Source: Spirochaetota bacterium
GTDB taxonomy: Bacteria; Spirochaetota; Spirochaetia; Treponematales; UBA12059
Direction of reading: 5' to 3'
DNA: 64,000 nucleotides
NCBI GenBank assembly: GCA_022703505.1
Contig: JAKLDN010000003.1
Coordinates: 62,001-126,000 of the forward strand
Shown piece after piece: positions 37,024-52,146 of the stretch. The position numbers and the translations under genes were made by a program. Below the pieces are notes generated by a model, which saw nothing but the letters and a program-made list of their open reading frames with translations, was not told the origin of the DNA and searched no databases. Numbering within the stretch: position 1 is the first letter of the stretch; every line of letters starts with the position of its first letter.

Positions 37024-38949
37024 GTGAAGAAGAAAACGCTCATTCTGGCCGGCATCGCCGTCCTTCTGATCATCGCCGCGGGTATCGGGACCTTCGCCGT
37101 ACTCGGGGCCGGGGGCGGGGCGGACCGGGAGCGCCAGAACACTCTGCGCTTGGCCCGGGACTACCTGGAGCAGGGGGACTTCGACCGCGCCCTGGACCTC
37201 CTGGACCGCCTTCTCATCAAGAACGCGGACGACCCGGACGCCCGTGCCCTCCGGGACGAGGTCGTGGCCCGGAAGAAGGCCACCGAGTCGGACAAGGCCC
37301 GGGCCGAGGCGGAGAAGAACCGCTCGGGCCAGGACGCCCTGACCCAGACCATCTCCAAGCTCGGCCAGACCATCGAGCGTACCTCGACCCCGCCCGCCCG
37401 GGACACGGCGGCGGAGAAGGCCGCGGAGGAGGAGGCCCGGCGCAAGGCCGAGGCGGAGGCCGCGGCCGCCCGGAAACGCGCCGAGGAGGCGGAGCTGGCC
37501 AAGAAGAGCGCGGAGCTCCAGGAAAAAATGCGGGCCGTGAACGAGCTGGTCCGCAAAGGTCGGGAGTCCATGACGAACGGGCAGTACGACCCCGCCCGCA
37601 AGTCCTTCGCCTCCGCCCAGGAGATCCTTCCCCCCGGGGAGGACAAGTTCGCGGCCCGGACCCTGGCGGACATCGCGGAATCCTATTACGACGGGTACAA
37701 GCGGGCCCCCGAGAGTCCGGACGGCATCCAGTCCGCCAAGGACGCCCAGAAGACGGCCCAGGAGGCCATCCGAAAGGACGCCACGGACGCCCGCCCGCAT
37801 TACACCCTGAGCAAGATCTACAACGATTCCAAGCTCCCGGACCTGGCCGTGAAGGAACTGGAGGAAGCCACAAGGCTGGATCCCAAGAACTACCTGTACG
37901 CCTTCGAGCTCGGGAAGGCCCAATATGCCCTGAAGAAATACGAGGAGGCCCGAAGGTCCTTCGAGTCCGCGGGTTCCCTGAATCCCCAGTTCGAGCCGGC
38001 CTTCTTCAACCTGGGCATGACCCAGCGGGTCCTCCGGAACAACGACGCCGCCCTGACGGCGTTCCGGACCGCGGTCAAGATCAAGCCCGATTTCGTCCGT
38101 GCCCATATCGAGATCGGGCGGGTCCTGTTCGCGAAGGGAGACACCAAGGGGGCCATCACCTCCTACCGGACGGCCCTCTCCTTCGAGCCGAAGAACGTGA
38201 CGGCCCTACGGGACCTCGGTCTGGCCCAAGTCAAGGAAGGGAACCTGGCGGACGCGGAGAGGACCTTCGCGGAGGCCCTGGCCGTCGAGTCCGACGCGGT
38301 CACGAACTACAACCTGGCCAACGTCAAGATCGACCTCAAGAAATTCCGGGAAGCCGTGCCCCTGGCGGAGAAGGCCGTCGCTGCGGCCCCGAACAACGCC
38401 CTGTACCAGTACACCCTGGGTCTGGCCCACGACGGGGCCGGGAACGCGGACGGGGCGATCGCGGCCTATACCCGAGCCGCCGCCCTGGACAAGGCCTACG
38501 CCCCGCCCCGCATCAACCTGGGCAAGCTCTACCTGGAAGCGGGTTTCGACGACAAGGCCCTGCCTCCCCTGGAGGAAGCGTACAAGATCGACCCGAACTC
38601 CCTGGAGGCCAACAACAACCTGGCCAACGCCTACGGCCGCAAGGGGCTTTGGGACAAGAGTATCTTCCACTACGAGAAGGCCCTCCAGCTTTCCCCCCGG
38701 AATCCTACCATCCGGCTGAACCTGGCCCGGGCCTACGTAAGCGCGGGGACCCTGGAGAAGGCCCGGGACGCCTACGCGGAGCTGATCAAGCTGGCCCCCT
38801 CCGAGTGGGATGCTTACTTCGAGCTCGGGAAGGTCTACGCCAGCCTCAAGGACTCCGCCAACGCACGGCGGGTGCTGACGGAGCTCAAGGCCAAGAAGCC
38901 GGATTACGAGAAGCGGGCGGAGGTGGACGCCATCCTGGCGGGTCTATAG
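37024..38949 (+). CDS. Large TPR protein with N-terminal membrane anchor
   Basis: 641 aa. KKKTLILAGIAVLLIIAAGIGTFAVLG is a membrane anchor or uncleaved signal; then an Ala/Glu/Arg coiled coil (about 75-180) and at least ten TPR units (about 230-640), each with the W/L-G-Y-A-F-x-A-x spacing (for example NLANAYGRKGLWDKSIFHYEKALQLSP). GTG start with GGAG 8 nt upstream. The TAG stop is the first three bases of a structured repeat element. Probably periplasmic-facing; client unknown. Confidence 0.85.
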   Translation: MKKKTLILAGIAVLLIIAAGIGTFAVLGAGGGADRERQNTLRLARDYLEQGDFDRALDLLDRLLIKNADDPDARALRDEVVARKKATESDKARAEAEKNRSGQDALTQTISKLGQTIERTSTPPARDTAAEKAAEEEARRKAEAEAAAARKRAEEAELAKKSAELQEKMRAVNELVRKGRESMTNGQYDPARKSFASAQEILPPGEDKFAARTLADIAESYYDGYKRAPESPDGIQSAKDAQKTAQEAIRKDATDARPHYTLSKIYNDSKLPDLAVKELEEATRLDPKNYLYAFELGKAQYALKKYEEARRSFESAGSLNPQFEPAFFNLGMTQRVLRNNDAALTAFRTAVKIKPDFVRAHIEIGRVLFAKGDTKGAITSYRTALSFEPKNVTALRDLGLAQVKEGNLADAERTFAEALAVESDAVTNYNLANVKIDLKKFREAVPLAEKAVAAAPNNALYQYTLGLAHDGAGNADGAIAAYTRAAALDKAYAPPRINLGKLYLEAGFDDKALPPLEEAYKIDPNSLEANNNLANAYGRKGLWDKSIFHYEKALQLSPRNPTIRLNLARAYVSAGTLEKARDAYAELIKLAPSEWDAYFELGKVYASLKDSANARRVLTELKAKKPDYEKRAEVDAILAGL

Positions 38950-39082
38950 CAGGTTGTTGAAATACTCGAAGCATTTCAACAACCTGCTATGCAATTGCTC
39001 GAGAACCTTACGGTTCTCTGCCCAATTGCGAAATTAAGGTAGTGTTGATAAAGGTTCCATAGCCTTTTTCAACACCCTGCTA
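38947..39082. repeat. Three-hairpin intergenic repeat, copy A
   Basis: 136 bp from TAGCAGG to CCTGCTA. Hairpin 1: perfect 17-bp arms (38947-38963, 38973-38989) with loop ACTCGAAGC. Hairpin 2: GCAATTG/CAATTGC (38991-38997, 39023-39029) around GAGAACC/GGTTCTC. Hairpin 3: GTGTTGATAAAGG against CCTTTTTCAACAC (39042-39054, 39063-39075), one mismatch. The first three bases are the stop codon of the TPR gene and the last three (CTA) are the mutL stop. A second copy is at 51117. Confidence 0.9.
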
Positions 39083-40897
39083 GATGATCCGCTTCACGAG
39101 GCGGTAGAGCTCGTCCTTGCCGAAGCGGAGGCGCACGGGGCGGCCGTGGGGACAGCGAGGCTCCGGGAGTTCCCGGGCCCGGGCTATCAACTCCACGGCG
39201 GCGGCCCGGTCCAGCTCGTCCCCGTCCTTGACCGCGGCCCGGCAAGCCGTGGTCGCGTGGGCCTCCCGGAGGAGGGCGTCCGGGGACGGCCGGGACCTCA
39301 GGAGCTCCAGGACGGCCGACGCGTCTCCGTTCCCCAGGCCCGCGGGGAGGCCCGTGACCAGCCAATCCGACCCCGTTCGCTCCAGGATATAGCCCGCTTC
39401 CTTCAGCGTCTCCACGGAGGCGGCCAGCCAAACCTCTTCCATGTCCGAATCCGGCTCCAGGACCAGGGGCACGAGGAGCTCCTGCACCGTCGAGGGCCGG
39501 GCCACGAGGCGGTCGAAGATCAACCGCTCGTGGGCGGCGTGCTGGTCTAGGAGCCAGAGGGCCCCGTCCTCCTCGTAGACCAGGAAGACCCCCAGGGCGG
39601 AGCCGAGGTAACGGAAGCCCGGCCCCCCGTCCGTTGCGGGAGAGGGACCTCCCGCCGGGGCGGAACCCCCGCCGCGCGCCTCCGCGCCGGACTCGGCCTC
39701 CCGGGCCCGCCGGGCCCCCGCGGCCAGGTCCGCGACCCGGTCCCAGCCTGCCCGTCCCTCCGGCTCTGCCGTGCCCCCGGGGAGGGCGCCCGGATCGGTG
39801 CCCGGAGCCCGCGGGGGGTAGTCCCGCAGGCCCGGGGTCTCCCGGACTTCCCAGAGGCTTCGCTCCGGTACGTCCTCCCGATCCCGGAGCCCGGCCAGGC
39901 GGATACGGTCGGACAGGGCCTCCCGGACCGCGCGGACCACGGCCTTCCGCACGGGCTCGATGTCCCGGAACCGGACCTCCCGTTTGGCGGGGTGGATGTT
40001 GAAGTCCACCAGGGCCGGATCGATGTCCAGGAAGAGGAAGGCGAAGGGGTGCTGCCCCCCCGGCAGGACCGGGGAGAAGGCCCAGTCCAGGGCCTGAAGC
40101 AGGGAGTATTCCGCCACCCGGCGGCGGTTCACGAAGACCTGGGAGTGCCGGCGGTCCGTCCGGGCCAAGGCAGGATCCCCGATCACCGTCCGACCCTCGA
40201 AGCCCGGACCCGATAAAGCGACCTCCGACACGAGCCCCGCCGGGGCGTCGGGGGCGTAGACCGAGGCGACCCGCTCCGCCGGCCCCGCCGGGGGTAGGAA
40301 GAGGGACAGAGCTCCCTCGGTGAAGAGGCGGAAGGCCGTGGAGGGGAAGGGGATGGCCTTGTCCACCAGGGCCTGGCGGCAGAGGGCGGACTCCGTGGCC
40401 GGGCGCTTGAGGAATAGCTTTCGGGCGGGGTAGGAGTCGAAGAGCCCCCGGACCCGGACCGTGGTTCCGGGCCTGCCCGCCGCGGGTTCCACGGAAGCGG
40501 GACTGCCCGGGACGGAGGTCAAGAGATGGGGGACCCCGTCCCTCTCGGCGCTCAGGATCGAAAGCCGGGCTACCGCGGCGACCGAGGCCAGGGCTTCCCC
40601 TCGGAAACCCAGGGTGCGGGCGGTTAAAAGGTCATCCAGTTCCGCGATCTTGCTGGTGGCGTGGGGCAGGATCGAGAGGGCCAGGTCCTCGGGACCCATC
40701 CCGCGGCCGTCGTCGGTGACCCGGAGGGACGCGATGCCCCCGCCCTCCAGGTCCGCCTCGATGACCGAGGCCCCCGCGTCCAGGGCGTTGTCCAGGAGTT
40801 CCCGGAGCACCGAGGCGGGCCGCTCGATCACCTCCCCCGCGGCTATGCGCTTGGCCGTGTCCGGAGGGAGGATGCGGATGCGGGGTGCGCTGTCCAT
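39080..40897 (-). CDS. mutL: DNA mismatch repair protein MutL
   Basis: 605 aa. GHKL ATPase motifs: ELLDNALDAGAS, DDGRGMGPEDL, GFRGEALASVAAV. The C-terminal dimer/endonuclease domain has DQHAAHERLIFD, ACRAAVKDGDEL and CPHGRPVRL, which correspond to the metal-binding motifs of nicking MutL, with Asp in place of the last Glu of DQHAxxExxxxE. The linker (about 350-420) is Pro/Gly/Arg-rich. The ATG at 40897 has no ribosome site but a -10 box 6 nt upstream. The stop lies inside repeat copy A. No mutS in the window. Confidence 0.95.
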   Translation of the reverse strand: MDSAPRIRILPPDTAKRIAAGEVIERPASVLRELLDNALDAGASVIEADLEGGGIASLRVTDDGRGMGPEDLALSILPHATSKIAELDDLLTARTLGFRGEALASVAAVARLSILSAERDGVPHLLTSVPGSPASVEPAAGRPGTTVRVRGLFDSYPARKLFLKRPATESALCRQALVDKAIPFPSTAFRLFTEGALSLFLPPAGPAERVASVYAPDAPAGLVSEVALSGPGFEGRTVIGDPALARTDRRHSQVFVNRRRVAEYSLLQALDWAFSPVLPGGQHPFAFLFLDIDPALVDFNIHPAKREVRFRDIEPVRKAVVRAVREALSDRIRLAGLRDREDVPERSLWEVRETPGLRDYPPRAPGTDPGALPGGTAEPEGRAGWDRVADLAAGARRAREAESGAEARGGGSAPAGGPSPATDGGPGFRYLGSALGVFLVYEEDGALWLLDQHAAHERLIFDRLVARPSTVQELLVPLVLEPDSDMEEVWLAASVETLKEAGYILERTGSDWLVTGLPAGLGNGDASAVLELLRSRPSPDALLREAHATTACRAAVKDGDELDRAAAVELIARARELPEPRCPHGRPVRLRFGKDELYRLVKRII

Positions 40898-40903
40898 GGG
40901 AAG

Positions 40904-40933
40904 GTTATACCGTTTCCGGAACCGCGGCCGCAA
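40904..40933 (-). promoter_or_regulatory. Promoter of mutL, leaderless arrangement
   Basis: TTGCGG (40933-40928), 18 bp, TATAAC (40909-40904) on the minus strand, then 6 nt to the ATG. Confidence 0.6.
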
Positions 40934-40958
40934 TGCCCGGCGTTTACCGGATAGATCC

Positions 40959-41072
40959 GACAGGATGGACAGGATGAAGAAAGATGAACAAGATTAGTTT
41001 TTTAGCCATACTCTATTTCTCGGTACGAAATTATCATGTTTATCTTGTCTTATCTTGTTAATCCTGTTGGAA
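40959..41072. repeat. AT-rich intergenic stretch with imperfect inverted CAGGAT/ACAAGAT repeats
   Basis: About 110 bp with much lower GC than its surroundings. Direct repeats CAGGATG (twice near 40960-40976) and ACAAGAT on the left are mirrored on the right by ATCTTGT, ATCTTGT and ATCCTGT, giving a long imperfect inverted repeat. No gene is seen. It resembles degenerate intergenic repeats known from many genomes; it may be a worn mobile remnant. Confidence 0.5.
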
Positions 41073-41077
41073 TTATT

Positions 41078-41102
41078 AAAAAAAGGCCGCCCGGAGGCGG
41101 CC
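41078..41102 (-). terminator. Intrinsic terminator of the outer-membrane protein operon
   Basis: Minus-strand stem GGCCGCC/GGCGGCC (41102-41085), 4-nt loop, followed by TTTTTTT. It lies 52 nt after the stop of the 41154 gene. Confidence 0.85.
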
Positions 41103-41153
41103 TATGTAAAACTTGAAGGGAGAGGGGCGGCCGGGGCGGCCGCCCGGATTCGG

Positions 41154-43295
41154 TCAGAAGTGCAGCCGCGTCTCCAGGGTGATCACCGGGACCATCTCGG
41201 GGATGCCGGGGGAGGCGTACAGGATGTCGCCGTTCCCGTCCCGCCGGGCCGAGGTGCTGAATACGAAGGCCAGGTCCAGGTTCGGGGCCTTGGGCACCGG
41301 CACGACGACCTCGCCCTTGAGGGTGGTGTTGGCGTCCAGGAGCGCGAAGTCGTTGTCGTAGAAGAGATCCTGCGCCAGACCCCGCTTCTCGTAGGAGATC
41401 GAGCCGTATACGTCCACCACGGGGATCAACCCCTTCTTGATGACCAGCTGGGCCGTGAAGTAGTCGTCCCCCGCGATGTCCGCCAGGCTCGCGGCGTCCG
41501 GGGACCAGGGCCAGAAGTAGCCCATCTTGAAGGTGAGCTTCTCCCGCAGGAAGCTGAAGCCGCCCTCGCCGTACACGCCCATCACGTTGGGGGTCGCGTC
41601 GTAGGTCGCGGGCGTGGTCAGGTAGGCCGCGTACTCCTCGGCGTAGGCGCCCTTGACGCGCTCGTAGGCGGAGTCGAAGAAGGCGGGCCGGAAGGCCCCG
41701 GTGAAGTACCGGAACTCCAGGCGCCAGTCGATGATGGCCACGTTCCCGATGAAGCCCGTGGCGGCGCCCCAGTTCTTGAGCTGGCCGTCGGACCAGAGTA
41801 GCTCGGTCTTGAGGCCCGGATCCACGGTGCCGAAGCTGTCCCGGATGTAGGGCACCGTGGCGGCGCCCTCGACGAACCAGCGGATCCCCAGGAGGGCGTT
41901 GCGCCGGATGATGGGCAGGTCCATGTCCAGGCCCAGGCCCAGGAAGATCGGGTCGCCGACGCTGGAAGGCGCCGCGAGCTCCCGGGCGGGGAAGAAGTCC
42001 GCCACCGCCTGGGCGCCCAGGGAGAAGGGGAAGTCCTTGACGGGGAAGAAGAAGAGCCGGGCGCCCACCACGGAGGGGTCCGCCAGGTCGTTCGTAACCA
42101 CCTCGAAGCCGGTCTTCTCGCCGGTGACGCCCATGTTGAGGCCGATCCGGCGCACCGCCGGGAAGTCCTGGTCGTTCGCGTAGTTCCGCATGAGGAGGCC
42201 GTGCCCCAACGTCATGGTGTTGAGGTTGCCCACCTTGAGGTAGAAGGGATCCTCCAGCTGTCGGCCGTACTCCAGGAAGCGGATCTTGAGGGCCAGGTCC
42301 TGGACGGCGTCCAGGGCTGCCTCTGCGGGGTCGCTCCTCCACCCGATGTCGGTGCCGAAGGACCACTCGTCGTTGCCGCGGGGCCGGTACCAGTCGCCGG
42401 GGTCGAAGAGGTTGGTCTGGTAGATGACGGGCAGGTAGAGACCCATCTTCAGCTTGCCGACCTTGATGATGGGCTGGATGACCGCCTTGGCGTAGGTGGT
42501 CTGGTCGATGGTCACCGATCCGAGCTCGAAGCCCAGAGCCTCCTTGAGCCACTTCACGAAGGGGCTGTCTTCGGAGGGTTCCTCCTCTTTTTCCTTGTCT
42601 CCGTCTTCGCCCTGGTCGTCCCCGCCGGCATCCGCGACGTCCTGGCCGGGCACGGACTTGAGCTTGTCGGGGCTGATGTCCACGTCCCCGTACTCCGCGG
42701 CGAACTGCTCCGCCGTATAGGCCAGGGCCTGGAACGCGGAGCCGAAGAGGTCCGCGAACTGCCCCGCCCCGACCAGGATGGACTGCAAGACCGCCCCGTC
42801 CGTGCCCAGGCGCCCGAACTGGACGGCTCCCTTGGACACGAGAAGGAGGTTTTTCATGCCCTCCTCCACGGCGAAGGTGAAGTCCGTGCCCCGGACTCCC
42901 GCCACCGTGGAGGTGGAGCGGATCTCGTAGCTCCCGCCCTTGGCGGCCACGGCCCGGACCTTGCCGCCCAGGAGTGCGAACTGGTTGGTCTGGCTGGGCG
43001 CCGCCGCGACCGCGTCCACCCGGAAGTTCGTGTTCTTGGCCAGCTTCACGAGGGTGCCGTTGGGTTTGAGGCGGAGCTCAGCGGTAGTGGTGGGGCCGGT
43101 CTTGACCAGGGCCCCGACCGGGATGGCGTCGTCCTCGGCTATGCCCGAGGGGTAGGCGAGGGTGGTCCCGCCGATCTGGACGGTAAGCTCCGAGCCGGAA
43201 ACGAATTCCAGGATCATGGAGGGCCCGCCTTGGGCGGCCAGAAGGGCCGGGGCGAGCAGAGCGGCCAGTATTGCCAGTAGCTTGCGCGATTTCAT
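41154..43295 (-). CDS. FecR-domain outer-membrane beta-barrel protein
   Basis: 713 aa. Signal peptide (KSRKLLAILAALLAPALLAAQ); residues about 30-190 form a FecR-like domain (VGALVKTGPTTTAELRLKPNGTLVKLAKNTNFRV ... YEIRSTSTVAGVRGTDFTFAVEEG). An acidic Asp/Glu/Lys linker (about 215-240) follows; then about 460 residues of alternating, amphipathic strands end in TLETRLHF, a C-terminal Phe as in BAM substrates. It is 10 nt downstream of a second barrel protein with similar strands (YLKVGNLNTMTLGHGLLMRNYAN / YVKLGSIQDLTLGDGFIVGDYAN), so the two are paralogues. Probably surface-exposed. Confidence 0.85.
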   Translation of the reverse strand: MKSRKLLAILAALLAPALLAAQGGPSMILEFVSGSELTVQIGGTTLAYPSGIAEDDAIPVGALVKTGPTTTAELRLKPNGTLVKLAKNTNFRVDAVAAAPSQTNQFALLGGKVRAVAAKGGSYEIRSTSTVAGVRGTDFTFAVEEGMKNLLLVSKGAVQFGRLGTDGAVLQSILVGAGQFADLFGSAFQALAYTAEQFAAEYGDVDISPDKLKSVPGQDVADAGGDDQGEDGDKEKEEEPSEDSPFVKWLKEALGFELGSVTIDQTTYAKAVIQPIIKVGKLKMGLYLPVIYQTNLFDPGDWYRPRGNDEWSFGTDIGWRSDPAEAALDAVQDLALKIRFLEYGRQLEDPFYLKVGNLNTMTLGHGLLMRNYANDQDFPAVRRIGLNMGVTGEKTGFEVVTNDLADPSVVGARLFFFPVKDFPFSLGAQAVADFFPARELAAPSSVGDPIFLGLGLDMDLPIIRRNALLGIRWFVEGAATVPYIRDSFGTVDPGLKTELLWSDGQLKNWGAATGFIGNVAIIDWRLEFRYFTGAFRPAFFDSAYERVKGAYAEEYAAYLTTPATYDATPNVMGVYGEGGFSFLREKLTFKMGYFWPWSPDAASLADIAGDDYFTAQLVIKKGLIPVVDVYGSISYEKRGLAQDLFYDNDFALLDANTTLKGEVVVPVPKAPNLDLAFVFSTSARRDGNGDILYASPGIPEMVPVITLETRLHF

Positions 43296-43305
43296 GGCGT
43301 CCTCC

Positions 43306-44649
43306 TTAGAACTTGATCGAGCTCTGGAGGCTCGAGGTGACGGTGTATCCCCCGGCTCCGTCGTATTTCAGGTTATAGAGGAGCGACAGGACCGCCGCTC
43401 CGGTACGGTAGTTGATCTGGGCGGTGATCACCGCGTCCTCGGCCGTCACCAGGTCCTCGAAGAATGTTCCGGTCTTGCCCAGGAAGTACTTCTCGTAGAT
43501 CGCGTCGAAGGAGAAGCCCCCGACGATGCCCTCCCCCAGGGTGGCCACGGCCCGAAGGTGCGGATAGTCCGCGGGGTTGTCGGTCGCGACGGCGGGCTTG
43601 GCCGCGAAGGGGCCGTCCAGGGAGGTCTTGAAGGCGATCTTGTCCTCCAGGACCGAGAAACCCAGGGAGGCGAACCACCCGGTGAAGGTGTCCCCCGCGG
43701 GGGCGACGGCCATCAGGTCGTGCTTGGCCGCCCGGTAGAGATCGTAGTTGGCGTCGAAGTAGACCGGGATGAAGCCGGGTCCCAGGACCCGGAGCTGGGC
43801 GCCGTAGGTGATGAAGCGGAAGAGGCGCCCGCCCGCCCCGATCATGGAGCCCCAGCGTCCCTCGGGCTGGAGTACGAAGTCCGAGAAGGCCGCCAGGGGG
43901 AAGGTCTTCCCCCCGAGGATCGGGATGAACACGTCCAGCCCGTACATCGCCACGGTCTCCAGGGGCTGGACCACGGGATTGTACAGGTCGGCCTGGAAGT
44001 CCGCGGCCGCGGTCAATCCCACCTGCATGCTCTCCATGATGGGGATCCCCGTGCCGTAGAGGGGCCGGGCGAAGAGACGGGCTCCCACCACGTCGAAGCG
44101 GGCCAGGTTCCCGGTCATCAGCTGGGCCCCGACCCAGGGGAACTGGAAGAGGGCGCCGTCGATGTCCAGGGCAAGGCCGAAGATCCTCTGCTCCGGCAGG
44201 AAGCGGGTGTTGGCGTAGTCCCCCACGATGAATCCGTCCCCCAGGGTCAGGTCCTGGATGGAGCCGAGCTTCACGTAGAGGGGGTCGCCCCGCTGCCCGT
44301 AGCGGACGTACATGAACTTGGGAAGGTAGACGTCCAGGAAGGTCTTGCCGTTGCCCTCGTAGTCCGGGATCCAGTCCCCTCCGTACACGGCGTCCTCCCC
44401 CGGGGCGGGGGATAGCTTGAAGCGGAGGGTTATGTCCAGCCCGATGCCGATCTTCCCGAAGGAGAGGTCCGGCTGGAATCCCAGGCGGGTCCAGCTGGAG
44501 AAGCCTCCCAGCCCGTCCGGCAGGACGTCGGTGCCCAGGTTGATGCCCGCCTGGAACTGGAACCCCGACCCGGAGTCCTCGGAATCCTGGGCGAAGGCGG
44601 ATATGGAAAGAAGCAACAGGATCGTCGCGACGGCGATCGACTTCCGCAT
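43306..44649 (-). CDS. Outer-membrane beta-barrel protein, paralogue of the adjacent FecR-barrel protein
   Basis: 447 aa with signal peptide RKSIAVATILLLLSISAFAQ and a barrel of roughly 20 predicted strands ending SSLQSSIKF (C-terminal Phe). It shares with the next gene the block KLGSIQDLTLGDGFIVGDYANTRFLPEQRIFGLALDIDG, but has no FecR domain. The ATG at 44649 has AGGAGG 8 nt upstream. First gene of a two-gene operon. Spirochaete outer membranes carry several such lineage-specific barrels. Confidence 0.85.
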   Translation of the reverse strand: MRKSIAVATILLLLSISAFAQDSEDSGSGFQFQAGINLGTDVLPDGLGGFSSWTRLGFQPDLSFGKIGIGLDITLRFKLSPAPGEDAVYGGDWIPDYEGNGKTFLDVYLPKFMYVRYGQRGDPLYVKLGSIQDLTLGDGFIVGDYANTRFLPEQRIFGLALDIDGALFQFPWVGAQLMTGNLARFDVVGARLFARPLYGTGIPIMESMQVGLTAAADFQADLYNPVVQPLETVAMYGLDVFIPILGGKTFPLAAFSDFVLQPEGRWGSMIGAGGRLFRFITYGAQLRVLGPGFIPVYFDANYDLYRAAKHDLMAVAPAGDTFTGWFASLGFSVLEDKIAFKTSLDGPFAAKPAVATDNPADYPHLRAVATLGEGIVGGFSFDAIYEKYFLGKTGTFFEDLVTAEDAVITAQINYRTGAAVLSLLYNLKYDGAGGYTVTSSLQSSIKF

Positions 44650-44778
44650 GATAAAACCTCCTGATCTGCCTGAGCCGGGATCCAGGACCCGCCGGTACCC
44701 GTGCACGGTATACCGACAATGCCGGAGTCCCACGGTAAAGTATACCTCCCCGCCGTGGAAAAAAACATACCGCGCCGC

Positions 44779-44807
44779 TTGTCCCGATCCCGTCTCCATG
44801 GTAGGTT
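44779..44807 (+). promoter_or_regulatory. Promoter of pyrF-pyrE
   Basis: TTGTCC (44779-44784), 17 bp, extended TGG-TAGGTT (44802-44807). The leader would be about 40 nt. No pyrimidine attenuator hairpin is visible in it. Confidence 0.4.
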
Positions 44808-44852
44808 CGGTCGACGGAGCGATGCCGCTAACCCTGTTCCCCGGGAGCTTCC

Positions 44853-46433
44853 ATGGACTTCTTTTCCCGTCTTTCCGCCGCCTGGATCGAGCGCCGGACA
44901 CTCCTGTGCGTGGGGTTGGATCCCCGGCCCGCGGCCGGCGCGGAGGACCCCCGGAAGGCCGCGGCGGAGATCCTGGATCGAAACCGCCGCCTGATCGACG
45001 CGACCGCGGAGCACGCGGCCTGTTTCAAGCCCAACATCGCCTTCTACGAGGCCTGGGGTTCCGCGGGCTGGGACGCCTTGAAGGCCACCATCGACTACAT
45101 TCCCGAGTCCGTTCCCGTCCTCCTGGACGCCAAGCGGGGGGACATCGACTCCACCGCCCGCGCCTACGCCCGGGCGGTCTTCCGGGAACTGGGTGTGGAC
45201 GCGGTCACCCTGAGCCCCTACCTGGGGCGGGACGCGGCGGATCCCTTCCTGGAGTACCCGGACGCGGCCTTGTTCCTGCTCTGCCGGACCAGCAACCCTC
45301 GGGCCGGGGCCTTCCAGGATCTGACCGTGGACGGCGCGGCGTCCCGGACCGCGGTGATTTCCGGGACGGGCAGGGCCGTGGGTACGGCCCGGACCTCCGC
45401 CGAGCCCCTCTACCTCCGGGTCGCCCGGGAGTGCGTGTCCTGGTCCGATCGGGTCGGCCTGGTCGTGGCGGGAAACGACCCCGAGGCCCTCCGGGCCGTC
45501 CGTGCCGCGGCGCCGGAGGCCTGGTTCCTGGCCCCCGGGATCGGCGCCCAGGGCGGCGATATCTCCGAAGCCTGGGAGGCGGGTGCCCGGGAGGACGGCC
45601 TGGGGATGATCCCGGCCGTCTCCCGGGCCGTCTCGGAAGCCCCGGACCCGGGAGCGGCGGCCGCGGCCCTCCGCAGGGCCGCCGCGGAGGCCTGGGAGAA
45701 GGCGATGGAATCCCGGATCCACGAGCAGAAGCGGCCGGCGCCCGTTTCCGGCGTAGCCTCCCCGACGGCGGTACCCGGGAGGGGGACAGGGCTCGGGAAC
45801 CCTTCGGAGTCCGAGACGGGGACAGAGCTCGATCGCGGAATCATCAAGGAAAAGCTGCTCCGGGGCCTGGTGGAGACCGGATGCTTCCGGGTAGGGGAGT
45901 TCACCTTGAAGAGCGGGATCCGCTCCCCCTTCTACATCGACCTGCGGAGCGTGGTATCCGACGCGGGCCTCTTGGAGACGGCCGCGGAGGCGTACGCCCT
46001 CCTGGCCCGGGGCCTGGAATACGACCGGCTGGGGGGAATACCCGCGGCCGCCCTTCCCCTGGCTACCGCGGCCGCCCTGCGCCTGCGGAAGCCCCTGGTC
46101 TGGCCCCGCATGCCCGTGAAGGAACACGGGACCGGAAATCGGGTGGAAGGCCGTTTCCGGATCGGGGAGAAGGTTCTATTGTTGGATGATCTGATCACCA
46201 CCGGGGCCAGCAAGCTGGAGGCCGCGGAGATCCTCCGGGGCGAAGGCCTCGAGGTCGCGGACCTCGCGGTTCTGATCGAGCGGGGAGTCCGGGGGCGCGG
46301 GGAGCTGGAAGCGGTAGGCATCCGCCTTCACGCCTTCCTGCATGTACGGGAACTGATAGCCCTCTGCGTGTCCCTGGGCCTGGTGGACGCGGATGCGGGT
46401 AGGCGAATGGAGGAATTCGCCGCCGCGGAGTGA
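44853..46433 (+). CDS. pyrFE: Bifunctional orotidine-5'-phosphate decarboxylase / orotate phosphoribosyltransferase
   Basis: 526 aa fusion for the last two steps of UMP synthesis. Residues 1-280 are OMP decarboxylase (type 2): CVGLDPR, CFKPNIAFYEAWG, VLLDAKRGDI with D92-K94-D97, and VGNDPE-like and PGIGAQGGD phosphate loops. Residues about 330-526 are OPRT: SGIRSPFYIDLR, GGIPAAALPLATAAAL, VWPRMPVKEHGTGNRVEG, and the PRPP motif VLLLDDLITTGAS (D445, D446). The order decarboxylase-first is the reverse of animal UMP synthase. The interdomain linker holds GGGGACAGAGCTC repeats. GGGAG lies 6 nt before the ATG. Confidence 0.95.
   Translation: MDFFSRLSAAWIERRTLLCVGLDPRPAAGAEDPRKAAAEILDRNRRLIDATAEHAACFKPNIAFYEAWGSAGWDALKATIDYIPESVPVLLDAKRGDIDSTARAYARAVFRELGVDAVTLSPYLGRDAADPFLEYPDAALFLLCRTSNPRAGAFQDLTVDGAASRTAVISGTGRAVGTARTSAEPLYLRVARECVSWSDRVGLVVAGNDPEALRAVRAAAPEAWFLAPGIGAQGGDISEAWEAGAREDGLGMIPAVSRAVSEAPDPGAAAAALRRAAAEAWEKAMESRIHEQKRPAPVSGVASPTAVPGRGTGLGNPSESETGTELDRGIIKEKLLRGLVETGCFRVGEFTLKSGIRSPFYIDLRSVVSDAGLLETAAEAYALLARGLEYDRLGGIPAAALPLATAAALRLRKPLVWPRMPVKEHGTGNRVEGRFRIGEKVLLLDDLITTGASKLEAAEILRGEGLEVADLAVLIERGVRGRGELEAVGIRLHAFLHVRELIALCVSLGLVDADAGRRMEEFAAAE
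45782..45830. repeat. GGGGACAGAGCTC-type repeats in the pyrF/pyrE linker
   Basis: GGGGACAGGGCTC (from 45782) and GGGGACAGAGCTC (45818-45830), the second followed by GATCGCGGAA, the same flank as at 60159. They lie in the poorly conserved linker between the two enzyme domains and keep the frame open. Confidence 0.75.
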
Positions 46434-46463
46434 GGCGCCCGGAACTTCTCCGGATGCCGAGGA

Positions 46464-46874
46464 TCAGGCCCCTCGGACCATGTCCTCCAGGGTCCTGTGG
46501 GCGGTGAAGGACCGCAGGTGCGAATCCATCTCTCTCCAGATCTTCCCGGCGGCGCAATCGTTGCGGCGCTCGCAGGCATCCTCTTTCCCGCAGACGCAGG
46601 GGGCGATTCCCAGGCCCTCTCCGGAGGATTCCAGGATGGCTTCCAGGGTGATCTCCCTCAGGGGGCGGGCGAAGTAGAATCCGCCTCCGGGGCCGCGAAC
46701 CGAGTTGATGACGCCGGCTTTCCTCAGGCGGAAGAAGATCTGCTCCAGGAATTCCGGAGAAATCTGCTCCCGCTCCGAGATCGCTTTGATGGAGACCGGA
46801 GAGCCGTCCTCGCTCGTTCTGGCCAGGGCCAGGACAGCCCGCAGCGCGTACCTACCCTTCGTGGTTATCCGCAA
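46464..46874 (-). CDS. Rrf2-family regulator with four cysteines (IscR-like)
   Basis: 136 aa if started at TTG 46874: RITTKGRYALRAVLALA is the usual Rrf2 N-terminus, and GGGAG lies 7 nt upstream. A longer start (TTG 46904) would add ten residues and crowd the promoter. A winged helix-turn-helix (VSIKAISEREQISPEFLEQIFFRLRKAGVINSVRGPGGGF) is followed by C93, C95, C101 and C107 (CVCGKEDACERRNDC), a spacing that could hold an Fe-S cluster. Likely senses Fe-S, redox or NO. No isc/suf genes are adjacent. Confidence 0.92.
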   Translation of the reverse strand: MRITTKGRYALRAVLALARTSEDGSPVSIKAISEREQISPEFLEQIFFRLRKAGVINSVRGPGGGFYFARPLREITLEAILESSGEGLGIAPCVCGKEDACERRNDCAAGKIWREMDSHLRSFTAHRTLEDMVRGA

Positions 46875-46906
46875 TTTTGTGCTCCCGGGTTCATTTTGCT
46901 TCAATT

Positions 46907-46935
46907 ATCATATCGCCGGAGTAAGGAATTCGCAA
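46907..46935 (-). promoter_or_regulatory. Promoter of the Rrf2 regulator
   Basis: TTGCGA (46935-46930), 17 bp, TATGAT (46912-46907) on the minus strand. The leader would be about 25 nt. Confidence 0.55.
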
Positions 46936-46978
46936 GGAAATTACGGTTGATAGGATAAATTTTTCGTCTAAAGTCCGA

Positions 46979-47938
46979 TCAAGACCGTTCCAGTCTCCAG
47001 CACCGGTGCGGTCGGGCGTCCTCGAAGTCCGGCGGCGTGGTCGGCCTGGTCAGATCCCGCAGGGATATCCCGGGAAACCGGGTCTCGTCGAAGCGGAAGG
47101 ATCGGGAATTCGTCGAGAAGTAGAGGATGCCCCCCGGAGAAAGGACTTCCAGGCAGAGGCTCACGAGGTCGATCCAGTCCCGATTGATGTCCAGGGAACC
47201 GCTCATGCGCTTGGAGTTCGAGAAGGTGGGGGGATCCAGGATCGCCAGGTCCCAGCGGCGGCCGGCGGCCCGGGCGGAGGACAGGAACTCCAGGGCATCC
47301 TCATGGAAAAGCGAATATGACCGGCCCCGGAATCCGTTCAGGTCGAGGTTGCGGCCGGCCCAGGCCAGGTAGGTCTTGGAAAGGTCGACGCTGTCCACGG
47401 AGGCTGCACCTCCCGCGGCGGCATAGACGGAGAACGAACCGGTATAGCAGAACAGGTTGAGCACCCTTCGGTCCCGGGCCTCGTCCCGGACCCGGGACCG
47501 GGTGATACGATGGTCCAGGAACAACCCCGTGTCCAGGTAATCCGAGAGGTTCACCAGGAAGCGGAGTCCTCCCTCTTGGACGACCGCCGTCCGGCCTTCC
47601 TCCGAGACCCGCTCGTATTGCCCGCTTCCCCGCTGCCTCCTGCGAACCTTCCGGAAAATGTGCTCCTCCGGAACCTCCAGGACCCGGGATACCGCCCGGC
47701 ACATTCGGTCCAACCAGGCCCGTTCCTCCGCCTCGGGCTTCTCGTAGGGGCGCTCATACAGGGAGACGAGGGCGTAGGGGCCGTACCGGTCCACGGCCAG
47801 TGGAATTTCCGGGATATCCCGGTCGTAGACCCGGTAGCACTCCACGGATTCCCGGCGCGCCCATTTCCGGAGATGGCGGTCCCGTTTCCTCAGGCGGTTC
47901 TCGAGGTATTCCTCCTGTCGGTCCGGAGAATCCGGCAT
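46979..47938 (-). CDS. Class I SAM-dependent 23S rRNA methyltransferase, RlmK/RlmI-like
   Basis: 319 aa. The N-terminal third is the RlmK/RlmI-type substrate domain (ECYRVYDRDIPEIPLAVDRYG), then LVNLSDYLDTGLFLDHRITR, the SAM motif VLNLFCYTGSFSVYAAAGGA, VDLSKTYLAWAGRNLDLNG, and motif IV LDPPTFSNSKRM. This equals the C-terminal half of E. coli RlmL (m7G2069). No THUMP domain is present. It starts 3 nt after the rex stop and has no own ribosome site, so it is coupled to rex. Confidence 0.9.
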   Translation of the reverse strand: MPDSPDRQEEYLENRLRKRDRHLRKWARRESVECYRVYDRDIPEIPLAVDRYGPYALVSLYERPYEKPEAEERAWLDRMCRAVSRVLEVPEEHIFRKVRRRQRGSGQYERVSEEGRTAVVQEGGLRFLVNLSDYLDTGLFLDHRITRSRVRDEARDRRVLNLFCYTGSFSVYAAAGGAASVDSVDLSKTYLAWAGRNLDLNGFRGRSYSLFHEDALEFLSSARAAGRRWDLAILDPPTFSNSKRMSGSLDINRDWIDLVSLCLEVLSPGGILYFSTNSRSFRFDETRFPGISLRDLTRPTTPPDFEDARPHRCWRLERS

Positions 47939-47941
47939 GGT

Positions 47942-48586
47942 TCAGGCGGGCTGGTTCTTTCTTGTCTGGAGCATGACGGAAAGCAGGGCGTAACCCGAGG
48001 ACAGGTCTTCCCGATGGACGACCACCTCGTCCGAGACCTTGAGCTTGGCGTTCGTGAAATTCCAGATGGCCCGGATCCCGGACTTCACCAGGGTATCCGC
48101 GGTCTCCTGGGCGTGGGGGGACGGCACGGTCAGGATGGCGTACTCCACCTTGGAACCCCGGATCGTCGCTTCCAGGTCCGCGAGATTCAGGACGGTCACC
48201 CCGTGGATTTTCTTGCCGATCTTGTCGGGATCCGTGTCGAAGGCGGCCACGATGTGCAGGCCGTGGATCCGGAACTCCGGGTATCCCATGAGGGCGGAGC
48301 CCAGGTTGCCCGCGCCCACCACGATGGCGTCGTGCATCTCGTCCCAGCCCAGGTACCGCTCCACCGCGGCGATCAGGGCGTCCACGGGATAGCCTTTCTT
48401 GGGCTTTCCGATGATGCCCGTGATCGCCAGGTCCTTGCGCACCTGGATCGGTTCCAGGTTCAGTTCCTGGGCGATCACGGTGCCGGATATGTAGAACTGG
48501 CTGTTTCTCTGGGCGTTGCGGATGATGTGGAGGTAGGAGGGGAGGCGCCGTATCGAAGGGGTGAACGATATCTTCAGTCGAGCCAT
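47942..48586 (-). CDS. rex: Redox-sensing repressor Rex
   Basis: 214 aa. Winged helix (RLPSYLHIIRNAQRNSQFYISGTVIAQELNLEPIQVRKDLAI), then a Rossmann domain that binds NADH (AIVVGAGNLGSALMGY), domain-swap helix at the C-terminus. Rex represses fermentation and respiration genes and releases DNA when NADH/NAD+ rises. The ATG at 48586 follows AGAGG. A promoter and a candidate small RNA lie upstream. Confidence 0.95.
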   Translation of the reverse strand: MARLKISFTPSIRRLPSYLHIIRNAQRNSQFYISGTVIAQELNLEPIQVRKDLAITGIIGKPKKGYPVDALIAAVERYLGWDEMHDAIVVGAGNLGSALMGYPEFRIHGLHIVAAFDTDPDKIGKKIHGVTVLNLADLEATIRGSKVEYAILTVPSPHAQETADTLVKSGIRAIWNFTNAKLKVSDEVVVHREDLSSGYALLSVMLQTRKNQPA

Positions 48587-48618
48587 GTTCGCCTCTTTGG
48601 GATATGGATGTAAAAATA

Positions 48619-48648
48619 AATATAGGGGGGTATAGATAATTAAGTCAA
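48619..48648 (-). promoter_or_regulatory. Promoter of rex
   Basis: TTGACT (48648-48643), 18 bp, TATATT (48624-48619) on the minus strand. It lies directly after the terminator of the candidate small RNA. A Rex operator palindrome was not recognised in it. Confidence 0.6.
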
Positions 48649-48660
48649 TATTCAATCGGA

Positions 48661-48741
48661 AATAAAAGGAAGCCCCGGGGAAAAAGGAGGTTTAAAACCC
48701 CGGGGCTCGGTGGAAGCGTAGAGTTATACGGAACTCTACGC
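48661..48741 (-). ncRNA. Candidate small RNA upstream of rex
   Basis: About 75-80 nt on the minus strand: a 10-bp hairpin GCGTAGAGTT/AACTCTACGC (48741-48716), a short linker, and a 10-bp terminator stem AGCCCCGGGG/CCCCGGGGCT (48707-48671) followed by TCCTTTTATTT. The terminator loop contains AAACCTCCTTTTT. No gene on this strand lies upstream for the terminator to serve, and a promoter ends just before the first hairpin. Confidence 0.55.
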
Positions 48742-48744
48742 ATA

Positions 48745-48772
48745 AATATACACGATTCGGATTTTAAATCAA
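48745..48772 (-). promoter_or_regulatory. Promoter of the candidate small RNA
   Basis: TTGATT (48772-48767), 16 bp, TATATT (48750-48745) on the minus strand. The start point would fall near 48738, inside or at the edge of the first hairpin arm, so the 5' end needs mapping. Confidence 0.5.
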
Positions 48773-48859
48773 GAGTGAGTTTTGATGTCCCGAGTCCGGG
48801 ATGCTTCCGGTGCCCTAGTCGCGGGTGATTCGGAAAGGCATCCGACGAGCCCGGAGCCC

Positions 48860-48888
48860 TTGCAATGAGAACCGGCATGTATTAGAAT
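48860..48888 (+). promoter_or_regulatory. Promoter of the antiporter gene
   Basis: TTGCAA (48860-48865), 17 bp, TAGAAT (48883-48888). The leader would be about 65 nt, AT-rich. The 304-bp stretch 48656-48959 holds only this promoter, the rex promoter and the candidate small RNA. Confidence 0.6.
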
Positions 48889-48959
48889 TGCGTAGAATAT
48901 GTCAGTATATGCGGATGGTTCTTCATTATGGTCTATATTGACATAAAACGGGAGAAGGT

Positions 48960-51119
48960 ATGAAGAGGGCTTCGAGAATCCTCGTTTTCCTGATCGTGCT
49001 TGTGCTGCCCTTCGCGGCCGCGGCCTCGGAGGAATCCGGGATAGCGGCCCGGGAGACGGCTCTGGTCATCCAGATCGGGATCATCCTGTTCGCGGTGCGC
49101 CTCGGATCGGCCCTGGCCCAGCGCGTCGGGGTGCCCACGGTGCTTGGGGAACTCCTGGCGGGAATCGTCATCGGCCCCTACGCCCTGGGCGCCCTGCCCC
49201 TGCCGGGATTCCCGACGGGCCTGTTCGCGGGGAGCATGGGCGAATTGGCGGTGAGCACCGAACTCTACGGGATCGCGACCATAGCGTCCATCCTCCTCCT
49301 GTTCGTGTCGGGCCTGGAGACGGACCTCTCCCTCCTCATGAAGTACTCCCTCGCGGGGGGCATCATCGGGATCGGGGGCGTGGCGCTCTCCTTCGCGGCC
49401 GGGGACCTCCTGGGCATGGTCCTGTTCCGGACCGGTGCCATGGATCCCCGGGCCCTCTTCCTGGGGATCATGTCCACCGCCACCAGCGTGGGGATCACGG
49501 CGCGGATCCTCTCGGACCGCAGGAAGATGGACAGCCCCGAGGGCGTGACCATCCTGGCGGCCGCCGTCTTCGACGACGTCCTGGGCATCGTATTCCTGGC
49601 GGCGGTCATGGGGATCGCGACCCTGACCCGGGACGGGACGGGAGGCCCCCTGCCCTGGGGCTCCATCCTGGGGATTGCGGGGAGGGCCTTCGGCTTCTGG
49701 CTGGGGTTCACGGCCCTGGGCCTGTTGCTGTCCAAGCAGCTGGCCCGTTTCCTCAAGAGTTTCCGGAATCCGGCCTACTTCTCCATCCTGGCCCTGGGCT
49801 TGGCCCTGATCCTGGCCGGGATCTTCGAGAAGCAGGGCCTGGCCATGATCATCGGGGCCTACGTCCTGGGCATCTCCCTGTCCAAGTCCGACATAAGCCA
49901 TGTCATCCTGGACAAGACGCGGGGCCTCTACGAGTTCCTGGTGCCCCTGTTCTTCGCGGTGATGGGAATGCTGGTCAACGTCCGACAGCTCCTGGACCCG
50001 GCGGTCCTCCTGGGAGGCCTCGCGTACTCCCTCGTGTCGGTCGCCTCGAAGTTCATCGGCTGCGGATTTCCCGCCCTGTTCCTGGGCTTCAACGGCAAGG
50101 GAGCCCTCCGCATCGGCGCCGGCATGGTGCCCCGCGGGGAAGTGGCCCTCATCGTGGCCGGGATCGGGTTGTCCGGGGGCCTCCTGAGCGAAAACGAGTT
50201 CGGCATGGCCATATTGATGACCCTGATCACTACGATCGCCGCCCCCCCGGTCCTTTCCGCGGCCCTGCGGATTCCCGGTCGGGGTACCCGGGCGGTGGAG
50301 AAGGGGGCCGAGGCGGAGTCCTCCGTCTACGCCTTCCCCTCCGAGGACGTCGCGGTCCTGGTTTCGGACGTCCTGGTCCGGGATCTCCAGAACGAGGGCT
50401 TCTTCGTCCAGCTCATGAACGTGGGGGACGGGATCGTGCAGGTCCGCAAGGACGACATCGCCTTCTCCCTGGAGCGCAAGGGGGTCGAGCTGACCCTGCG
50501 GATGGATCCTTCGGACGCGATCTTCGTGAAGACCGCCCTGTTCGAGGCCGTGGCCCAGCTCAACCAACGCTTCGAGGAACTCCGGAAAAACCTGGACCCC
50601 AAACGGCTTACCGAGGGCCTGGACGAGGAGGGGGGGCGCGTGAATCCCGGGTTCCGGGAAGCTCTGTCCCCGGACTGCGTCATCCTGAACCTCAAGGGAG
50701 CGGACAAGGAGTCCGTCATCACGGAGCTCGTGGACCGCTTGAGTTCGAAAGGGCTCCTGGCGGATCGGGCCCAGGTCCTGCGGGACGTCCTGGACCGGGA
50801 GAAGTCCATGAGCACGGGGATGCAGCACGGCATCGCCCTTCCCCACGCCAAGACCGAGGGGGTGACCCGCATCGTGGCGGCCCTTGGCCTGAAACCCGAG
50901 GGCGTCGAGTTCCAGTCCCTGGACGGCGCGCCCGCCAAGGTCATCCTCCTCCTGGCTTCCCCCGGCAGGCAGGCGGGCCCCCATATCCAGGTCCTGGCCT
51001 CCGCGGCCGCCCTCCTGAACGACGAGATCCGCCGGACGGACCTGCTCGCGGCCCAGAGCGTGGAGGAGGCCGCGGTGATCCTGGGCCTGGGGACCAAGAA
51101 AGCCGTGTCCAGGGATTAG
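48960..51119 (+). CDS. CPA2 cation/proton antiporter fused to a PTS EIIA (type 2) domain
   Basis: 719 aa. A signal-like first helix, then about 12 transmembrane helices (residues about 30-430) of the Na+/H+ exchanger superfamily, with GVPTVLGELLAGIVIGPYALG and the unwound-helix region FDDVLGIVFLAAV (double Asp). A soluble middle domain (about 455-560) links to a C-terminal EIIA fructose/mannitol-type domain (about 570-719) with phospho-acceptor H629 in GIALPHAKTEG. This links ion transport to PTS phosphorylation state. GGAGAAGG lies 2-9 nt before the ATG. Its TAG stop is the first codon of repeat copy B. Confidence 0.92.
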   Translation: MKRASRILVFLIVLVLPFAAAASEESGIAARETALVIQIGIILFAVRLGSALAQRVGVPTVLGELLAGIVIGPYALGALPLPGFPTGLFAGSMGELAVSTELYGIATIASILLLFVSGLETDLSLLMKYSLAGGIIGIGGVALSFAAGDLLGMVLFRTGAMDPRALFLGIMSTATSVGITARILSDRRKMDSPEGVTILAAAVFDDVLGIVFLAAVMGIATLTRDGTGGPLPWGSILGIAGRAFGFWLGFTALGLLLSKQLARFLKSFRNPAYFSILALGLALILAGIFEKQGLAMIIGAYVLGISLSKSDISHVILDKTRGLYEFLVPLFFAVMGMLVNVRQLLDPAVLLGGLAYSLVSVASKFIGCGFPALFLGFNGKGALRIGAGMVPRGEVALIVAGIGLSGGLLSENEFGMAILMTLITTIAAPPVLSAALRIPGRGTRAVEKGAEAESSVYAFPSEDVAVLVSDVLVRDLQNEGFFVQLMNVGDGIVQVRKDDIAFSLERKGVELTLRMDPSDAIFVKTALFEAVAQLNQRFEELRKNLDPKRLTEGLDEEGGRVNPGFREALSPDCVILNLKGADKESVITELVDRLSSKGLLADRAQVLRDVLDREKSMSTGMQHGIALPHAKTEGVTRIVAALGLKPEGVEFQSLDGAPAKVILLLASPGRQAGPHIQVLASAAALLNDEIRRTDLLAAQSVEEAAVILGLGTKKAVSRD

Positions 51120-51254
51120 CAGGGCGCTGACAAACTCGAAGCTAGTCAGCACCCTGCCATGCAATTGCTCGATAAACTTGCGCTTTTCTGCGCAATTGCG
51201 ACATTAAGGAGGCTGTCGACAAAGGCGCCATCGCCCTTGTCAACAGCCTGTTAG
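51117..51254. repeat. Three-hairpin intergenic repeat, copy B
   Basis: 138 bp between convergent genes. Hairpin 1: GCAGGGcGCTGAC/GTCAGCaCCCTGC (51119-51131, 51145-51157) with the same loop core ACTCGAAGC as copy A. Then the exact 14-mer shared with copy A from 51159, GCAATTG/CAATTGC arms (51161-51167, 51193-51199), CGA-ATTAAGG-like junction, and hairpin 3 AGGCTGTCGACAAAGG against CCCTTGTCAACAGCCT (51210-51225, 51234-51249). The first three bases are the antiporter stop codon. Confidence 0.88.
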
Positions 51255-51270: not shown

Positions 51271-52146
51271 TCATTCCCACCAGGTCCGGGCGGTGAAGTC
51301 CGGCCGGATGGAGGCTCCCGAATGCCGGATGACCGAGGCGGTGCGTCGGTTCGGGAAGAGGGGGGCCAGGCGGCGCTCGAAGAGCTCCAGGGTGGTTCCC
51401 TTGGCCACATCCTCGTCGAAGAGCAGGGCCGTGCCGTCCCGGTAGGCGGACAGGAAGACCTCGTCCGAGAGGGAGACGATCGGGGCGTCGTCCTTTCTTT
51501 TGAACATGCTGAACCGCACGAAATACAGGGGAACGCCCAGGTATTCCGCCAACAGGAGCCCGGGCAGGATGGAGCCGTGGGCCGCCCCCACCAGGATGTC
51601 CGGCTTGCACGCCGCGAGGATCCTGTCCGCAAGGGCCCGGATCTTGGCGGGTTCGGAAGCCCGCCAGGTGTACTTGTCCCGGATCCCCGTGTAGACGAAG
51701 TCCCGGACCAGGACCGGAAGCCTCCGCAGGAGGGACCCGGCCAGTTCCCGGATGCCGGGGTCCAGGCGGACCACGGCACGGGCCACCTCCACCCCGTCCC
51801 GGTACAGGTTGTTGGCCCGCTCCAGTTCCCCCAGGGGATAGCGGAGGTTGTACTTCCTCGCCTCCCCGAGGTCGTAGTACACCGTCGGATGCAGGGGCAA
51901 GCCGTGCTCGACGCAGATCTTGTAGTTGAGCAGGACGTTGACCAGGGCGGGGGCGCGCACGTAGAGGCGGACGCAGAAGTCCCAGAAGGGATCCTCCGCT
52001 TCCTTCGGCACGGTCCCGGACTCTTCCCGGCCCAGGACGGCCTCGACACCCGCCGCCGCTTGTCCGAGGAGGTCCGCGAAGGTTTCCTCGAAATCCATGG
52101 CCCCGGGCGGCTCGTCCCAGTCCGCGAAGAGATATCGGTCCAGCAT
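51271..52146 (-). CDS. Phosphoribosyltransferase-fold protein
   Basis: 291 aa. The C-terminal 130 residues carry a PRTase fold: KPDILVGAAHGSILPGLLLAEYLGVPLYFVRFSMFKRKDDAP, and the PRPP-loop-like GTALLFDEDVAKGTTLELF in which the usual DD is DE-D. The N-terminal half (AMDFEETFADLLGQ ... YDLGEARKYNLRYP) is helical and not recognised. The substrate is unknown; it may not be a transferase. The ATG has no ribosome site and a -10 box 6 nt upstream. Frames open further upstream and in other phases are not family-like. Confidence 0.75.
   Translation of the reverse strand: MLDRYLFADWDEPPGAMDFEETFADLLGQAAAGVEAVLGREESGTVPKEAEDPFWDFCVRLYVRAPALVNVLLNYKICVEHGLPLHPTVYYDLGEARKYNLRYPLGELERANNLYRDGVEVARAVVRLDPGIRELAGSLLRRLPVLVRDFVYTGIRDKYTWRASEPAKIRALADRILAACKPDILVGAAHGSILPGLLLAEYLGVPLYFVRFSMFKRKDDAPIVSLSDEVFLSAYRDGTALLFDEDVAKGTTLELFERRLAPLFPNRRTASVIRHSGASIRPDFTARTWWE

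Follow-up and report, generated by a model that had tools for sequence, protein, structure and literature searches.

IS5-family IS are among the closest described systems to the repeat analysed here. ISAzs10, annotated as an IS5-family IS from Azospirillum, has ends of the form CAGG(N)(N)GCGGAAAAAGG and a TTAG/TTAG duplication; the spirochaete MITE described below has the same start of its ends and the same type of target. A close relative of ISAzs10 has a CTAA/CTAA duplication, again of the (C/T)TA(A/G) type found for the MITE. A spirochaete IS with MITE ends encodes the same type of transposase (NF033581 type). Unlike an IS5-family IS, the MITE carries no gene, is 130 nt long and contains three internal hairpins that were not seen in the IS.

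Other mobile or structured repeats share some of these properties. Chunjie, a MITE of Geobacter uraniireducens described in a review (PMC10969869), resembles the spirochaete MITE in its terminal inverted repeats, its duplications, its dozens of copies and its mostly intergenic location, but it is 178 to 235 bp long and has another host; this comparison is by description only. QMITE2 of Coxiella burnetii (PMC5896051) is likewise found mainly at gene 3′ ends and in intergenic regions and forms stable hairpins. Its duplications, however, are of 7 to 11 nt and of variable sequence, and it does not copy a palindromic stop-codon target. The REPIN/RAYT system has in common with the MITE the paired inverted hairpins, the intergenic location and a tetranucleotide at each end. 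In REPINs this tetranucleotide is part of the element and is not duplicated, whereas in the MITE it is the duplicated target, and the RAYT gene is typically flanked by repeats in carriers of REPINs, whereas a genome that carries the MITE (G004) has no detectable RAYT gene. Pneumococcal BOX, RUP and SPRITE (PMC10969869), compared by description, are also short, dispersed, structured repeats between genes. SPRITE is described as terminator-like (PMC10969869), while the two MITE copies examined most closely here have no site resembling an intrinsic terminator.

A literature search found no paper on insertions at shared stop codons or on a MITE derived from IS5 that targets CTAG, and there was no Rfam match at the gathering score in the window (the whole 64,000-nucleotide stretch of DNA that was analysed). 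An earlier note on this DNA knew of no named family with this architecture; that holds for the family, while the kind, the IS5-type MITE, is known. The repeat is apparently an undescribed MITE family of uncultured spirochaetes. What is instructive in this new family of a known kind is the tie between a palindromic stop-codon target and the tolerance of insertions at convergent gene ends. It gives a specific explanation, open to testing, for the accumulation of some transposons at the ends of genes, and it accounts for repeats that could be mistaken for structured RNAs or terminators in annotation.

Two copies in the window and their repeat family

The window contains two copies of the element, A and B (Table 1), at positions that the earlier note had given correctly to within one base. 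The features it listed as common to both, namely the ends, the loop ACTCGAAGC, the 14-mer ATGCAATTGCTCGA and the CAATTGCGA.ATTAAGG junction, were all found in both copies, as were the three consecutive hairpins. The fold of each copy is much more stable than that of dinucleotide shuffles, with z scores of -9.8 and -5.9 on the + strand and -10.9 and -10.1 on the - strand. The arms do co-vary as claimed, but not perfectly: arm 1 of B differs from that of A by four compensated pairs, yet it also has three unpaired positions. No gene was called inside the 130- to 131-nt core. The convergent neighbours and the coincidence of the ends with their stop codons were likewise borne out; from their translations, we take three of these neighbours to encode a TPR protein, MutL and an antiporter.

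Table 1. Positions of copies A and B and of the adjacent genes in the window
Feature	Positions	Strand	Remarks
Gene upstream of copy A	37024-38949	+	Presumed TPR protein
Copy A, left target-site duplication	38946..38949		ATAG, probably CTAG with a mutation; TAG ends the 37024-38949 gene
Copy A, MITE core	38950..39079	+	130 nt, CAGG...CCTG, three hairpins
Copy A, right target-site duplication	39080..39083		CTAG; contains the mutL stop; CTAG also in empty relatives
mutL (presumed), other side of copy A	39080-40933	-	
Antiporter gene (presumed), left of copy B	48960-51119	+	
Copy B, left target-site duplication	51116..51119		TTAG; TAG is the stop of the 48960-51119 gene
Copy B, MITE core	51120..51250	+	131 nt, CAGG...CCTG, second subfamily
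Copy B, right target-site duplication	51251..51254		TTAG, same as the left one
Gene right of copy B	51271-52146	-	

Copies A and B belong to a larger family; the lack of further copies that the earlier note named as a refutation was not borne out. A nucleotide search of the whole genome from which the window comes (a Spirochaetota bacterium assembly of 3.66 Mb in 14 contigs, 98.5% complete, 67% G+C; the own genome below) yielded 23 full-length copies in two subfamilies, 15 of them A-like at 91-100% identity to copy A and 8 at 78-83%. The covariance model search of the genome and its relatives that the earlier note had proposed turned up more copies. In the own genome it recovered the 23 and added about five degenerate ones; over the own genome and its relatives, copies were present in 16 of 59 genomes and in 12 of 32 genera. 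When a collection of 84,980 species genomes was scanned with a stringent pattern, matches came solely from spirochaete assemblies, all of them MAGs, including Spirochaetaceae bacterium UBA1306, Treponema sp. AS27yjCOA_177 and QR_Bin.15. No copies were found in the phage and plasmid records searched.

Several unusual arrangements were seen among the copies. On contig C11 of the relative G004, at about 1550-2530 (L157), the MITE occurs three times in tandem with repeated flanks and a period of 422 bp, which is either a recent amplification or an effect of assembly. At 1178-1451 of contig C21 in the same genome (L089), the MITE adjoins an older, diverged copy with which it shares the terminal CTAG; this is an insertion into the end of another copy. 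A second short intergenic repeat (CCACGGAG..CACGGAG.. and GGATGAACAGGAT-like) lies near two MITE copies of the own genome, L016 (C9:118.4k) and L020 (C1:413.4k).

Transposition and the probable IS5-family partner

Both ends of the element carry terminal inverted repeats, CAGG(N)TG(T/C)TGA.... In G004, the 4 bp before CAGG are the same as the 4 bp after CCTG at 38 of 41 distinct insertion sites (CTAG 18, TTAG 12, CTAA 6, TTAA 1, GTAG 1), while 10,000 shuffles gave a mean of 14 and a maximum of 26. Matched 4-bp duplications also flank 17 of the 23 copies in the own genome (shuffle p 0.0005). The consensus target is (C/T)TA(A/G), mostly CTAG. Empty sites were sought in two congeneric genomes with queries made by joining the two flanks of each own copy. 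Nine loci (L002, L006, L009, L010, L011, L012, L017, L036 and L038) are empty in a relative and have a single CTAG there, and two others (L019, in G001; L037, in G002) are occupied at the orthologous position. Matched target-site duplications and empty sites together mark the element as one moved by a transposase. G004 also carries dozens of copies with identical covariance-model scores, and those that were read are nearly identical in sequence, which indicates recent movement.

These data bear on two other origins. A structured non-coding RNA gene or cis-regulatory RNA that does not move would account for the three-hairpin fold kept in all full-length copies. It would not account for the precise empty sites and 4-bp duplications, nor for dozens of near-identical dispersed copies in G004, and it has no Rfam match; the duplications and empty sites rule it out, and we consider it extremely improbable. 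The second is a REPIN-like element moved by a RAYT HUH transposase (Y1_Tnp, PF01797) and placed beside a tetranucleotide without duplication. The inverted hairpins, the intergenic location and the tetranucleotide at each end would fit such an element, and the own genome has five Y1_Tnp genes (L031-L035). However, no REP or MITE copy could be recognised next to any of the five, the 4-mer varies jointly at both ends and is single in empty sites, and no Y1_Tnp gene was detected in G004, whose copies are the most recent and whose assembly is 95% complete. The co-varying duplications, the lack of adjacency and the result for G004 exclude this origin, which we rate as very improbable.

The element is thus very probably a MITE of uncultured Spirochaetota that is moved in trans by an IS5-family DDE transposase and targets (C/T)TA(A/G). 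The earlier note had offered a non-autonomous mobile element as one of two readings, and in kind this was right, given the duplications, the empty sites, the recent burst in a relative and the probable IS5-family partner described here.

Neither the own genome nor G004 gave a whole partner gene in profile searches for DDE_Tnp_1 (PF01609), DDE_Tnp_1_6 (PF13751) and DUF772 (PF05598), since the partner is interrupted where contigs end; its end sequences led to it instead. Contig C2 of the own genome terminates within a repeated element, with the letters TTAA|CAGGCTGTTGAAATTC...ATGCGCGGAATGGAAGAGAAGCAGATAGACGC..., and this terminus has 14 of its first 16 bases in common with the MITE. Contig C1 of the own genome and contigs of G004 end in similar termini. 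The relatives G065 and G068 show the same start where contigs end, with reading frames that are longer. The remainder of the transposase gene and the right end, GGAATTTCAACAGCCTG, come from G068 contigs, and in G068 a terminal inverted repeat is present at both ends. The transposase is of the IS5 family (NF033581, transpos_IS5_4; 272.6 bits, cut-off 140). The spirochaete IS5-family transposon has ends CAGGCTGTTGAAATTCC and is flanked by CTA(A/G). An IS with MITE-like ends is therefore represented by its left end in the own genome and by both ends in a relative.

The assembled IS in the own genome and G004 consists of contig-end fragments only, with no full-length copy, and the G004 terminus has no readable transposase; since these fragments are all that the two genomes show of the partner, we infer its identity and propose that an IS5 transposase with these ends moves the MITE. 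Such a transposase would recognise the ends CAGG(N)TGTTGA... and insert the element into a 4-bp target, which would be duplicated. The shared ends, the IS5 transposase and the ISAzs10-like target type make an IS5-type MITE the best reading. An IS1182-like gene in G017 (L180) was considered as a partner and rejected, as it does not have such ends. Further CAGG(C/T)TGTTGAAAATT termini were seen at the end of own contig C1 (L125) and at G004 contig ends (L146 and L154, the latter doubled), with an interior unlike the IS5 left end. They are either right ends of the same IS or other transposons with a common terminus.

Gene ends and the CTAG target

The earlier note had asked whether copies lie between convergent genes and whether TAG stops coincide with their ends, and both are enriched in the own genome. 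Fourteen of the 23 own copies lie between convergent genes, compared with 8 of 55 junctions in the window (Fisher p 8e-5); the count is 15 if L022, whose left gene was missed by the final gene caller, is included, and the effect sizes are rough because the gene calls are home-made, from a model seeded with recognisable genes. At least one duplication provides the in-frame stop of a neighbouring gene in 18 of the 23 copies, against 18 of 67 other non-coding CTAG sites that are at stops (p 4e-5). The enrichment at stops and between convergent genes thus goes beyond that of other non-coding CTAG sites, so that availability of the target alone does not explain the location.

Enrichment is weaker among the recent copies of G004, where 10 of 42 are at stops, 26 are intergenic and six possibly lie within genes, in every gene arrangement; the two genomes differ in stop location with p 5e-5. 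The difference fits a process in which harmful insertions gradually disappear, with the availability of the target as the base. At 67% G+C, CTAG stops would be some of the few CTAGs where an insertion does no harm, and copies that land elsewhere would be lost with time. We infer that this is the reason for the build-up at convergent gene ends. A preference for 3′ ends, as the earlier note put it, is thus seen as an enrichment, and its cause is best explained by the CTAG target together with the loss, or the avoidance, of insertions that do harm.

As a palindrome, CTAG reads TAG on both strands. In six own copies (L001, L005, L006, L009, L010 and L012), the left duplication ends a + gene and the right one a - gene. 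The TAG belongs to the duplicated target and not to the body of the element, and a single CTAG is already present in relatives at most of the sites compared; the stop codons that the earlier note saw as supplied to the neighbours are this target. In the relative G002, the L006 locus has a single CTAG where the own genome has the two duplications, so that the two tail-to-tail genes had probably used the same CTAG until the element arrived. Insertion into a CTAG stop, even one common to two tail-to-tail genes, would restore both stops and should be neutral.

At the copy A locus, the CTAG of the mutL stop is present in both relatives, and the upstream gene ends there in TGA about 50 bp earlier. 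The copy A lineage seems to have lost the spacer, so that the upstream gene now stops in the left duplication. The copy B locus aligned poorly to the relative. In general, where the target that is duplicated is a palindromic stop (CTAG), each insertion yields a second copy of that stop, and both neighbouring proteins stay intact even where their genes have the four letters in common.

Conservation of the three-hairpin fold

Over the 23 own copies, 97.6% of stem cells are paired, and 14 of 49 pairs have changed on both sides. None of 500 shuffles reached the observed pairing and co-variation, and slid structures were also far below. Because stem differences between the subfamilies are compensated, the fold, or the inverted repeats as such, must matter for the copies that spread. 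Template-switch repair of imperfect palindromes could yield the same compensated pattern. Covariation in the hairpins of a transposon is by itself no proof of RNA function.

Mutations private to single copies reflect what happened after insertion. Their frequency is 1.7% in stems and 3.1% in unpaired parts (p 0.03), and 24 of 35 private stem mutations break a pair, including all of those in copy B. No intrinsic terminator (a GC-rich stem followed by a T run) was found in copy A or B. These results bear on the other reading of the earlier note, an RNA element that insulates convergent transcription, which we take in a form where the element insulates or terminates it and transposon-spread copies are retained by selection for this role. 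The strong conserved structure with its compensated changes, the convergent location of 14 or 15 of the 23 copies set against 8 of 55 junctions and the slight deficit of private mutations in stems are what such an element would predict. However, the private stem mutations mostly disrupt pairing, neither copy has a terminator-like site and the G004 copies are found in all gene arrangements, so that RNA insulation is not supported and we regard it as quite unlikely.

Co-option of the MITE in this lineage is a related idea: copies at shared CTAG stops may have been selected as spacers or RNA barriers between overlapping tail-to-tail transcripts. We consider this unlikely; if true, a transposon with a stop-codon target would work as a gene-end insulator.

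Single hairpins and an altered one were also seen. About a dozen solo first hairpins, palindromes of 37-43 nt without the remaining element, occur in the own genome (L024-L030 and sites such as C9:101455, C7:356896, C11:211324 and C1:602104). Some of them (L027) retain a remnant of the middle hairpin, which indicates that at least part of the solo hairpins are decayed copies; the remaining ones may be yet smaller mobile derivatives. In G004, a MITE variant starting at position 6344 of contig C11 (L156) has an enlarged and different middle hairpin.
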